From NCBI GenBank assembly GCA_021296315.1, contig JAGWAO010000015.1, positions 1 to 50,117 on the forward strand: a stretch of DNA of 50,117 nucleotides, given 5' to 3'. Positions 13,347 to 16,937 of the stretch are shown here, in pieces. The notes below the pieces were generated by a model. That model was not told the origin of the DNA and made no database searches. It worked only from the letters and a program-made list of their open reading frames with translations. The DNA comes from Acidimicrobiia bacterium. GTDB lineage: Bacteria; Actinomycetota; Acidimicrobiia; Acidimicrobiales; Aldehydirespiratoraceae. Both the position numbers and the translations under genes were made by a program. Every line of letters begins with the position of its first letter. The stretch's first letter is position 1.

Positions 13347-14957
13347 CTACAGCCTCTCCGGGGCCGACACCCCGAGAATGCCCAGAGCCACGGCTAGGCC
13401 GACCCGGGCTCCCTCCACCAGCCACAGACGGGCTTGGCGCAGTTCCTCGCTCACGTCGTCGCGCAGGATGGGGCAGTCGTGCCAGAACCGGTGGAAGGCA
13501 GCGGCCAGCTCCCGGGCCCAGCCCGTCACCTGGTGCGGGGCGCGGGCTCGCAACGCCGCCTGAACGGTGTCGGGCAGGGACGCCAGGGCCCGCAGCACGT
13601 CCAACTCACGCTCATGCACGAGCACGGCCAGGTCCACCTCGCTGAGAGATGCCCGCTGAACCCCGCGGGCCGCGGCCACCCGCCCCAGCGAGTGGATCCG
13701 GGCATGCGCGTACTGCACGTAATACACGGGATTCTCGGCCGATTGGGCCGACACCACGTCGATGTCGATGGTCTGAGTGGTGTCGATCGACTGGAGCAGG
13801 TACACCAGCCGGGTCACGTCGGGGCCGACCTCGTCGAGCAGGTCCGAGACCAGCACCATGTCACCGGCCCGCTTGGACAGGCTTACCTCTGCCCCGCCCC
13901 GCCGCAGCGTGACGTTCTGGCCGACGACCGCCTCGTAGGCCTCTCCGCTGTGCCCGAGGGCAGCCAGAGCGGCCCTCATCCGGGGGACGTAGCCGTGGTG
14001 GTCGGCACCGAGAATGTCGATCACCATCTCGCCACGGGAGAACTTCTCGCGGTGGTAGGCGATGTCGGGAAGGAAATATGTGGGCTCGCCGTCGCTCTTG
14101 ACCAAGACCCGGTCGGCGCTGTCGCCGAGATCGCCGGTCCGCAGCCACACCGCGCCGTCCCACTCGTACACCATTTCCCGGCTGCGCAGATCCTCGAGGA
14201 TGTCGTCCATCGCGCCCCGGCCGACCAGCGAGGACTCGCTGGTGTACAGGTCGAAGGCCACGTTCATCGCGGCCAGGGTCTCGGCCTGGTCCCGGTGGGC
14301 CCGCTCCAGCCCCCACTGGCGGGCGTCGGCACCGCCGGGCATCTCGGCAGCCCACTCGGTCACGTACTCGCCGTGGTAGCCATCGCTGGGCGGTTCATCC
14401 CCGCGGCTTCGAGCCTCGAGCGAGGCCGTGAACAGATCGATCTGGCCGCCCCGGTCGTTGACGTAGAACTCCCGGCACACGCGGTGGCCGCAGTGTTCCA
14501 GCAGCCGGCACAGCGAGTCGCCGTAGGCGGCCCATCGTCCGTGGCCGGCGTGCAGCGGTCCGGTGGGGTTGGCCGACACGAACTCCACGCTCACTGGGTG
14601 GCCCGCGCCCGCCTCGCTGCGGGCGTAGCCGGCGGCGCCGGCGTCGATCACCTCGCCGAGAACCTCGTGCAGCCAGCTCGGGGCCAGCCTGAAGTTCACG
14701 AAGCCGGGACCGGCGGCCTCCACCGCCACCACATGGGGGGGCGGCTGGGCGCTCAGATGGATGACGATCTGCTCGGCCAGCTCGCGGGGTCGACGTCCCG
14801 CCGCCCGGGCCGCGGCCAGCGCCACATTCGACGACCATTCGCCGTGGGAGCGGTCCCGGGGGCGTTCGATCGAGATCTCGACAGGCGCGGGCACGACGCC
14901 GGCTCCGTCCAGAGCCGACCGCAACCCGTCCCGCAAGCCGTCGCGCACATCCGGCAT
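13347..14957 (-). CDS. argS: Arginyl-tRNA synthetase
   Basis: The product is 536 residues, a normal length. It is a class I aminoacyl-tRNA synthetase. The HIGH-type motif HAGH is at about 136-139 within VSANPTGPLHAGHGRWAAYG. The C-terminal half has the anticodon-binding helices (YYVQYAHARIHSLGRVAA) and the usual C-terminal tail ARVGLAVALGILGVSAPERL. The N-terminal additional domain is present (residues 1-85). It is transcribed away from tRNA-Arg(CCG), which starts 104 bp upstream on the other strand, and is followed by lysA after four bases. Confidence 0.96.
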   Translation of the reverse strand: MPDVRDGLRDGLRSALDGAGVVPAPVEISIERPRDRSHGEWSSNVALAAARAAGRRPRELAEQIVIHLSAQPPPHVVAVEAAGPGFVNFRLAPSWLHEVLGEVIDAGAAGYARSEAGAGHPVSVEFVSANPTGPLHAGHGRWAAYGDSLCRLLEHCGHRVCREFYVNDRGGQIDLFTASLEARSRGDEPPSDGYHGEYVTEWAAEMPGGADARQWGLERAHRDQAETLAAMNVAFDLYTSESSLVGRGAMDDILEDLRSREMVYEWDGAVWLRTGDLGDSADRVLVKSDGEPTYFLPDIAYHREKFSRGEMVIDILGADHHGYVPRMRAALAALGHSGEAYEAVVGQNVTLRRGGAEVSLSKRAGDMVLVSDLLDEVGPDVTRLVYLLQSIDTTQTIDIDVVSAQSAENPVYYVQYAHARIHSLGRVAAARGVQRASLSEVDLAVLVHERELDVLRALASLPDTVQAALRARAPHQVTGWARELAAAFHRFWHDCPILRDDVSEELRQARLWLVEGARVGLAVALGILGVSAPERL

Positions 14958-15048: not shown

Positions 15049-16278
15049 ATGGCCGCCCCAGCCCCCGTAGCTCAGGGGATAGAGCAACGGCCTCCGGAGC
15101 CGTGTGCGCAGGTTCGAATCCTGCCGGGGGCGCATGCCCCTGCACCGGCCAAGAAGCCCCGCTGGACCTACCAGTGGAAGGAACTGCACGACGAGGTCAT
15201 CACCTCGGGGCTGTGCACCGGCTGCGCCGGGTGCGTTATCGCCTGCCCCCACCACGTGATCGGCTACACCCACGAGCCAGGCGCATACAAGCCGTTCCAC
15301 CTCGAGGAGGAGCTCGGAGCCGACGACTGCGTCCACGGGGTGAAGGGCTGCACGTCGTGCACGAGGGCCTGCCCCCGTTTCCGCATGTGGGAGCCCGAGG
15401 CCGACATGCACCTGTTCGGCCGCGAGCGCGATCCCGACGAGATGTCGGGCATCTACTCCGACATCCTGCTGACCCGGGCCAGCGACGACTTCGTGTACGA
15501 GGTGGGCCAGGACGGCGGGCTGGTGTCGGCCATCCTGATCTGGTGCATGGAGAACGACATCATCGACGGAGCCCTCACCAGCGGCGTGGAATCCCTGCCC
15601 AGCGGGGAGCCGGGCTGGAAGGCGTTCCCGATGGTGGCCACCAACCGCGACGAGGTGCTGCGGGGCGCGGGCAGCCGCTACACCTACTCGGCCAACCCCA
15701 TCGCCTTCGAGGAGGCCAGGGAGAAGGGCCTGGACCGCCTGGCGCTGGTGGGGATGAGCTGCCAGACGTCGGTCGGGCCGGTGATGTGGCACCGCAAGGT
15801 GGGCAAGGTGAGCAAGCCGATCAAGCTCAACATCGGCCTGCTGTGCTCGAAGTCGTTCGACGATTCGCTGTTCGACGAGTTGTTCGAGGTGAAGTACGGC
15901 CTGCCCAAGGAGCAGATCTCGAAGATGAACATCAAGGGCGTCTTCCAGATCTGGACCAAGGTCAACCTCAAGGAGTGCCACGCCTGGACCCGGGAGGGCT
16001 GCAATCTGTGCCCGGACTTCGCGGCCGAGCACGCCGACATCTCCACCGGCGGCATCGGCGACTTGTCCGACTGGACCCTCACCATCGTGCGCACCGAGCT
16101 GGGCCGGGCCGTGATCGACGCCATGGTGCGGGACGGGGCCATCGAGATCCGCCCCGGAGACGACGACCCCGGCGCCATCGCCCTGATGCACCGGCTGTCG
16201 GCCAAGAGCCGGGAGCGCTGGCCCCGCTGGGCCGACGGCGCGGCCCGCCTGGGCCTGCCCGAGCGCAGGTCCGCCTGA
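15049..16278 (+). CDS. FrhB-type (F420 hydrogenase/dehydrogenase beta subunit family) iron-sulfur protein, start unresolved
   Basis: The conserved protein begins near WTYQWKELHDEVITSGLC (from about 15163). Iron-sulfur motifs are CTGCAGCVIACP, then GCTSCTRACP and later GCNLCPDF, followed by ISTGGIGDLSDWTLTIVRT, as in FrhB/FdhB proteins that pass electrons between F420 or ferredoxin and flavin. The only ATG/GTG/TTG in frame before the first cluster is the ATG at 15049, and from there the frame reads straight through tRNA-Arg. After the tRNA only CTG codons (15184, 15211) precede the Cys motif; the first GTG (15256) would delete it. So the listed start is merely the open frame. The next gene, the probable selenoprotein, starts 44 bp downstream and is likely cotranscribed. 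Confidence 0.75.
   Translation: MAAPAPVAQGIEQRPPEPCAQVRILPGAHAPAPAKKPRWTYQWKELHDEVITSGLCTGCAGCVIACPHHVIGYTHEPGAYKPFHLEEELGADDCVHGVKGCTSCTRACPRFRMWEPEADMHLFGRERDPDEMSGIYSDILLTRASDDFVYEVGQDGGLVSAILIWCMENDIIDGALTSGVESLPSGEPGWKAFPMVATNRDEVLRGAGSRYTYSANPIAFEEAREKGLDRLALVGMSCQTSVGPVMWHRKVGKVSKPIKLNIGLLCSKSFDDSLFDELFEVKYGLPKEQISKMNIKGVFQIWTKVNLKECHAWTREGCNLCPDFAAEHADISTGGIGDLSDWTLTIVRTELGRAVIDAMVRDGAIEIRPGDDDPGAIALMHRLSAKSRERWPRWADGAARLGLPERRSA
15061..15132 (+). tRNA. tRNA-Arg (anticodon CCG)
   Basis: A full cloverleaf can be drawn. The acceptor stem GCCCCCG pairs with CGGGGGC (15125-15131), followed by discriminator G; CCA is not encoded. The D arm is GCTC-AGGGGATA-GAGC, the anticodon arm has loop CTCCGGA with anticodon CCG, and the T arm is GCAGG-TTCGAAT-CCTGC. 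It reads CGG codons, common in GC-rich genomes. A TAGCAT sequence at 15045-15050 is placed correctly for a -10 box, with a start near 15057. The gene is divergent from argS, whose enzyme charges this tRNA. Confidence 0.95.
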
Positions 16279-16322
16279 TCCCGAGCCCGACCCGCCCGAT
16301 CGCCTGACCCAAGGAGCCTGAC

Positions 16323-16937
16323 ATGGACATCGAGTTCTGGATCGACCCGCTTTGACCCTGGTGCTGGGTGACGGCCCGTTGGGTCGTCGACGAGGTGCAG
16401 CCGGCCAAGGACCTGAACATCACCTGGCAGCCGATCAGCCTGTTCTTCAAGAACGATCCCGACCCGGACTCCGACTACTACACGCACTCCTACTTCAGCC
16501 TGCGGCTGATGAGGGTGCTGGAGTCGGTGCGGGAAGCCGACGGCGACGACGCGATCGGGCCGCTGTACTGGGAGTACGGCCGGCGCCTGCACCACGACGG
16601 TGTGCGGGAGTTCCCGGTGGTCGACGCGCTGGAGACCGTCGGCTACGACACCTCCCACGCGGCCGCCTTCGACGACGACTCCTGGGATCCGGAGATCCGC
16701 AAGCGCATGGACGAGGGCCTGGCCCTGTGCGGCGATCAGGTCGGCACCCCGATGATCGCCCTGAAGGACCGCAACGGCGACAAGCAGGGCTACTTCGGCC
16801 CGGTCATCACCCGGGTGCCGCCCAGAGAGGACTCCCTGGCCATGTGGGACGCCCTGGTGGCCATGATGAACGTGTCCGGCTTCTGGGAGCTCAAGCGCAC
16901 CAGAACCGAGCGCCCCGAGTTCGGCACTCGCCCCTGA
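16323..16937 (+). CDS. Probable selenoprotein: DsbA/FrnE-fold thiol oxidoreductase of the Rv2466c type
   Basis: From the ATG at 16323 (AAGGAG six bases upstream) the frame reads MDIEFWIDPL-TGA-PWCWVTARW and stays open to 16937. With TGA read as selenocysteine, the product has 204 residues and active site U11-P-W-C14. Mycobacterial Rv2466c, a mycothiol-dependent reductase of this family, has FDPLCPWCW here as I recall it, so U replaces the first Cys. The C-terminal GTPMIALKDR, then GYFGPVITRVPP and FWELKRTRTERPEF match the family. An 8-bp hairpin with a GTT loop lies about 22 bases after the TGA. Without the first ten codons the protein would lack its redox motif. No Sec machinery genes are in the window. 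The alternative is a gene truncated to a GTG at 16368. Confidence 0.85.
16370..16388 (+). promoter_or_regulatory. SECIS-like hairpin downstream of in-frame TGA
   Basis: GACGGCCC pairs with GGGTCGTC (seven Watson-Crick pairs and one G-T) around the triloop GTT. The loop starts 22 bases after the TGA at 16353-16355. Bacterial SECIS elements are stems in the coding region at about this distance, with a G at the start of the apical loop. Confidence 0.6.

Follow-up and report, generated by a model that had tools for sequence, protein, structure and literature searches.

A probable selenocysteine-containing member of the Rv2466c family, conserved across an order of actinobacteria

Rv2466c (Mrx2) of M. 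tuberculosis is a mycothiol-dependent nitroreductase of the PF22234 family, and it also acts as an activator of nitro prodrugs (PMC11841060, in the passages drawn on here). In Rv2466c, and likewise in NCgl2478 of Corynebacterium glutamicum, the first Cys of the redox motif is nucleophilic and the second is resolving, electrons are supplied by mycothiol, and a role in oxidative stress has been described (relevant parts of PMC8280269 and PMC11841060). NCgl2478 and NCgl2339, both of the DsbA-Mrx1 cluster, are CPFC reductases tied to mycothiol, and thus Cys forms, which we compared by published description only (PMC8280269, in part). Among selenoproteins, the nearest listed family is DsbA-like form 1 (PF01323), which also combines a DsbA-like domain with UxxC and is given in Table 1 of a 2026 prokaryotic inventory covering 119 families or subfamilies (PMC13188914); no Rv2466c or PF22234 entry occurs in that table or in parts 1 and 2 of 3 of section 7. 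DsbA-like selenoprotein families are also mentioned in the portions consulted of PMC2398784, PMC9312934, PMC1794560 and PMC5029168, while the text covered of PMC12013277 held no match to "dsba". Among the listed open-access papers on selenoproteins in connection with Rv2466c, mycothiol, Acidimicrobi, DsbA-like families and metagenomes, judged by listing or by passage, we found no published Sec form of the Rv2466c family.

The gene studied here lies at positions 16323-16937 (plus strand) of the window, a stretch of 50,117 nucleotides from an Acidimicrobiia bacterium (assembly GCA_021296315.1, contig JAGWAO010000015.1). Translated with TGA as U, it encodes an Rv2466c-like oxidoreductase of 204 residues, predicted to carry Sec at position 11 in a UPWC motif. 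Its ATG start at 16323 is preceded by AAGGAG at 16311-16316, within a ribosome-binding site region at 16310-16317 (CAAGGAGC), and only ten residues (MDIEFWIDPL) stand N-terminal to the redox motif, followed by the in-frame TGA of codon 11 (16353-16355) and PWCW, as an earlier note on this DNA had described. That note also had the frame open beyond the TGA of codon 11, which it is, for 193 sense codons and not the 194 it had counted, up to a terminal TGA ending at 16937. Without recoding, the listed in-frame ORF comprises 189 aa from a GTG at 16368, and the motif is missing from it.

Assignment to the family was based on profile and structure matches. PF22234 (Rv2466c-like) scored 123.7 bits over residues 10-192, against a curated Pfam cut-off of 27, with its CPWC redox motif present as UPWC, UGA replacing the first Cys; PF01323 (the general DSBA model, that of classical exported DsbA oxidases) scored 24.5 bits, below its cut-off of 25.6, and no NCBIfam model matched the protein at E 0.001. 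Matches to four PDB sequences had E values between 5e-36 and 2.5e-33; one of the four, 5xur (1e-34), bears the name Rv2466c. Residue-by-residue alignments with 4zil and 4nxi placed the UGA on the first Cys of CPWC, bearing out the suggestion that the TGA sits at the first active-site Cys of the family, and Cys14 (TGC, 16362-16364) would by homology be the resolving Cys of UxxC. The protein thus shares with Rv2466c its family, the place of the redox motif, the PW between the redox residues and its length, and differs in that a UGA, with a hairpin downstream of it, stands in place of the nucleophilic Cys19, and in its host, a member of the Acidimicrobiia. From DsbA-like form 1 it is set apart by the family model that it matches, and an overlap with the representative of that form, NIP15863.1, is possible. 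A distant paralogue in the source genome (contig C29, L002, around position 1525) reads CPWA and so is without the resolving Cys.

To see how the UGA is distributed, 119 whole genomes were compared, consisting of the source genome (G000) and 118 relatives of the order. Some member of the Rv2466c-like family was present at E 0.001 in 98 of them, and 53, including the source genome, had an orthologue with TGA at codon 11, this codon being read at the DNA level in the closest class. These 53 genomes span ten families of the order, the family of the source genus and nine others, and the source protein is 53-95% identical to the other 52. Trp13 and Cys14 were found in all 53 UGA genes, where F5, W6, D8, P9, P12 and W15 are also invariant. 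Codon 11 was Cys in two of the 119 genomes, G019 (TGT) and G067 (TGC). Two 3′ fragments without codon 11 (G005 and G006) were counted among the 66 genomes without a UGA gene; L083 and L084 apparently duplicate these fragments. In a named collection of 24 loci, 22 covered codon 11 and all 22 had TGA, 16 of them duplicating genomes of the 119 set and 6 being additional MAGs; the loci are labelled Acidimicrobiaceae, Acidimicrobiales or Acidimicrobiia, apart from one "bacterium" and one Candidatus Aldehydirespirator. Across 396 genomes of the phylum, rows with more than 50% identity comprised three with TGA (G000, G016 and G056) and three with Cys (G227, G237 and G270, at 58-59%). The TGA form, which the earlier note took to be rare, is therefore common in the order, and the gene at 16323-16937 is very probably a genuine selenoprotein gene conserved across it.

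Our main reading, to which we give a probability of about 0.87, is that of a selenoprotein belonging to the Rv2466c family (Mrx2, a DsbA-like mycoredoxin), in which Sec11 would be inserted by way of SelB and the hairpin, mycothiol would be the reductant by homology, and Sec would be ancestral or acquired early. SelB with Sec-tRNA would recognise the hairpin 3′ of the UGA and direct Sec to position 11, where it would stand in for the nucleophilic Cys19 of Rv2466c, with Cys14 as the resolving thiol. The selenolate would first attack its target, either an oxidised substrate or a mixed disulfide. Resolution by Cys14 would then yield a selenenyl-sulfide, which would be reduced again by a low-molecular thiol, presumed by homology to be mycothiol. 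In the cell, again by homology, the enzyme may serve under oxidative stress to reduce small electrophiles or proteins that are mycothiolated or oxidised.

Synthesis of mycothiol in this order is no more than plausible. The ips gene that had been reported at 49.3 kb is real, with a match to PF07994. The MshC-type ligase of the source genome reached 418 bits against a cut-off of 485, MshC being the best ligase model there, and the same protein also just reached the cysS cut-off; the MshC cut-off was passed in 0 of the 119 genomes, and the model also responded in 14 of 14 controls. Genome G003 contains two MshC/CysS-like ligases with similar scores, on contigs C22 and C20 (L197 and L198).

The sub-threshold score of 418 bits leaves room for another electron donor, with Sec still inserted into a protein that is not a mycothiol reductase. 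Upstream of the UGA gene and on the same strand, Pfam matches and the neighbourhood identify a homologue of the F420 hydrogenase/dehydrogenase beta subunit (FrhB/FdhB-like, 15112-16278, start approximate) with a 4Fe-4S domain, and this protein might reduce the selenoenzyme from F420H2 or ferredoxin. Of the 44 UGA loci of the source family, 42 have such an FrhB-like gene upstream in the same orientation, at 250 bases or less in 37 and at 0.65-2.5 kb in 5, the other two loci having just 20 and 1500 bases upstream, and it also stands beside the Cys form in G019. In comparison, none of the 9 UGA loci of other families had one in the 1.5-3 kb of upstream sequence compared, so the association amounts to nothing beyond a family-level link. 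Furthermore, the protein at 15112-16278 did not reach the NCBIfam equivalog cut-offs for FrhB, and Rv2466c itself depends on mycothiol (PMC11841060, in part). We consider an FrhB-type donor improbable; by homology the reductant would be mycothiol. In the same neighbourhood, a tRNA-Arg(ccg) gene at 15061-15133 adjoins a divergently oriented arginyl-tRNA synthetase gene at 13347-14957.

The hairpin following the UGA, GACGGCCC-GTT-GGGTCGTC (16370-16388, plus strand), consists of an 8-bp stem (16370-16377 with 16381-16388) and a GTT loop (16378-16380) whose first base, G, is 22 nt after the TGA of codon 11. It corresponds to the G-first-loop hairpin 22 bases downstream that the earlier note had picked out, and it is conserved at the level of both codons and base pairs. 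The hairpin codons GTG, ACG, GCC, CGT, GTC and GTC were each kept in 49-51 of the 53 genes, and TGG, which lies between them, in all 53, whereas conserved residues outside the hairpin vary in codon. Among 25 representatives below 85% identity, taken from hand-compiled genome lists, the mean share of the major codon was 0.926 in the 6 informative codons (of codons 16-22), against 0.639 in the 47 conserved codons taken from elsewhere in the gene (p=2e-4), 4 of these 47, all Ile, also reaching 0.9. Over 38 distinct sequences, 98.7% of stem cells were paired, compared with 14-61% when the partner strand was slid, and the observed pairing values were reached by 13 of 500 shuffles. One G-C pair is replaced by U-A through two synonymous substitutions in L143, a compensatory change, and a G-U pair has become G-C in L085/L146; two-sided change was seen in only 1 of the 8 stem pairs.

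Folding of single sequences was less informative. The fold at 16370-16388 of the source gene is unexceptional (z -1.27, with 22 of 200 shuffles equally stable), and when the gene was recoded synonymously, 845 of 5000 versions folded equally well. The corresponding stretches of two Cys forms, both started further upstream and out of register, gave z -2.02 for L125, which is lower, and -0.29 for L126. Given these unremarkable single folds, it is conservation, and not the energy of any one sequence, that speaks for the hairpin. The search for a SECIS had a divided outcome, in that a conserved SECIS-like hairpin does follow the TGA, but no Rfam SECIS-type model matched near the gene. Sequence comparison supports the view that the conserved hairpin 3′ of the UGA is a SECIS-like element.

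Conservation of this region also bears on whether the UGA could be a real, regulatory stop, with translation restarting at GTG 16368 to give the 189-aa protein without the motif. That ORF exists, and 51 of the 53 genes retain the GTG, but its conservation is also explained by the hairpin. On the other hand, restart would not account for the residues F5, W6, D8 and P9 before the UGA and P12, W13, C14 and W15 after it, which are invariant in 53 of 53 genes, or for Cys in the place of UGA in G019, G227, G237 and G270, and we see only a slim chance for such a mechanism.

We next consider the machinery for Sec. In the source assembly, which is 86% complete in 83 contigs, selA and selB are adjacent on contig C25 and selD lies on C30, all scoring above curated cut-offs. 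SelD of the source genome reads MARRLTEFSHGAG-TGA-GCKI and so has an in-frame UGA of its own (GAG-U-GCK; L021 4004-4002, minus strand, C30) at what we take to be the known Sec/Cys place of SelD, making it a probable second selenoprotein of this genome. A strong match to tRNA-Sec, defined as 58 bits or more with a best E below 1e-10, was obtained at 65-68 bits in 13 of the 15 other members of the genus. Twelve of these genus genes were read, the anticodon being read only in inspected loci; they continue GGTTCGATTCCCGTCCACCTCCG, with CCA then in 11 of the 12.

No intact tRNA-Sec was found in the source assembly. It contains two UCA-bearing, tRNA-Sec-like copies whose last ~20 nt are missing, L022 1028-1105 on C27 and L023 1042-1119 on C68 (also L159 and L160), which are identical to each other over 78 nt and, in their first 76 nt, to 7 of the 12 genus genes. 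Both break at GGTTCG of the T arm and continue into different sequence. The missing 3′ part has three matches in the assembly at 2 mismatches or fewer, none of them behind a T arm. C27 and C68 are 82-85% alike over several kb, which would be compatible with a mixture of strains, a duplication or faulty assembly. Next to the copy on C27 there is a yqeC gene. Insertion of a mobile element was considered as the cause of the cut, but neither the flanking ORFs nor a comparison with G010 points to a cause: among four ORFs scanned, two match Pfam and both are ordinary genes, and in G010 the counterpart of the region 0.2 kb past the cut on C68 is 3.6 kb away from tRNA-Sec. The top match of the tRNA-Sec model in the source genome, on C34, was discarded, being a tRNA-Ser(tga) according to ARAGORN. 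Thus, the search for Sec machinery in the genome recovered selA, selB and selD, but not an intact tRNA-Sec in an assembly of 86% completeness.

Over the whole set, strong tRNA-Sec matches accompany the UGA gene, being present in 50 of the 53 UGA genomes and in 37 of the 66 others (Fisher p=2e-6, from hand-compiled lists and uncorrected for relatedness). The three UGA genomes without one are G000, G011 and G038, under the stricter filters, which lose weak matches. These data also address the possibility that a suppressor tRNA or an altered code places a standard residue such as Cys or Trp at the UGA. The frame is open whichever residue TGA stands for, but 40 of the 53 UGA genes terminate in TGA, Trp at neighbouring positions is encoded by TGG, and the Sec machinery is present and, where absent in G019, its absence goes with Cys, which leaves an ordinary residue very little credibility. 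As for a sequencing error or a decaying pseudogene, with the TGA a recent nonsense mutation of TGC or TGT, the source genome is indeed fragmented (86% complete, 83 contigs), but TGA in 53 of 119 genomes and 6 further MAGs, in a frame otherwise open and encoding 52 other proteins of 53-95% identity, refutes this reading, whose chance is next to nil. The proposal of a UPWC motif with selenocysteine, made in the earlier note, is hence supported by conservation of the UGA, the hairpin, exchange of Cys and Sec, and selA, selB and selD.

The exchange at position 11, for which an alignment of homologues had been suggested, was indeed seen and was placed on an unrooted tree of 64 rows. One clade unites the 25 Sec representatives with four Cys rows (L125, L167, L168 and L169; support 100/98), and the Cys row L126 (G067) falls outside this main Sec clade. 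The tree implies a minimum of five Sec/Cys changes, or three counting only starred branches, and, being unrooted, it does not strictly distinguish gain from loss of Sec. The Cys row of G019 (L125, TGT) has 3 of 8 stem pairs broken, and neither selA nor a strong tRNA-Sec match was found in that genome, which is 91% complete; it would represent a case of loss in which the Cys form goes with missing Sec machinery. G027, which belongs to the genus of G019, carries selA; no strong tRNA-Sec match was obtained there, and no close relative of the UGA gene. L167 and L169 have 3 and 2 stem pairs broken. L168 of G227 (one contig, 99% complete) carries TGC in a CPFC motif with all 8 stem pairs intact, possibly as a SECIS fossil, and its fully intact hairpin beside TGC is best read as a recent change from Sec to Cys. 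Since selA is present in the genomes of the Cys orthologues or near-orthologues G067, G227, G237 and G270, a Cys form does not require loss of the trait. From this pattern we infer that the main clade either started out with Sec or gained it early, and that Cys took its place on more than one later occasion.

These results would add a Sec form to the Rv2466c family, which was described only with Cys in the literature searched. Natural Sec, Cys and Cys-with-intact-hairpin orthologues within one order offer a comparison of what Sec buys, and the recurrence of the gene in related, mostly uncultured actinobacteria provides the selenium machinery of these bacteria with a specific target. Where gene prediction takes UGA for a stop, the annotated version of these genes would probably be a shortened one that begins at the internal GTG.

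Many of these Acidimicrobiia are marine or sponge symbionts. A 2017 paper on sponge metagenomes found SelA and SelB to co-occur in most symbiont bins and to be missing from most close references, and its passage on the two proteins names no target (PMC5649159, in that passage). The protein at 16323-16937 is a concrete candidate for a target behind SelA/SelB in sponge symbionts. It is doubtful that a selenol reductase of this kind, fed by mycothiol or, through its FrhB-like neighbour, by F420H2 or ferredoxin, is one of the main forces keeping Sec decoding in these bacteria and a principal target behind that enrichment; the idea is weakened by the strong tRNA-Sec matches in 37 of the 66 genomes that have no UGA gene, and because SelD is itself a UGA gene.

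More distant relatives were examined for UGA as well. L116, L117, L183 and L194, each flagged "1 TGA", were rejected as Sec forms on finding Cys at codon 11; the flag can mislead on distant matches, because a terminal stop may be read inside the alignment. Among the distant matches inspected, a set that left out about ten lower-scoring "1 TGA" rows without loci, UGA at codon 11 was present in L118, L119 and L120 only (G054, G101 and G105). These three UGA proteins are 28-33% identical and form a second, separate clade (support 100/96), with the motif FDPx-U-PWC[YF] and a short hairpin downstream in single folds.
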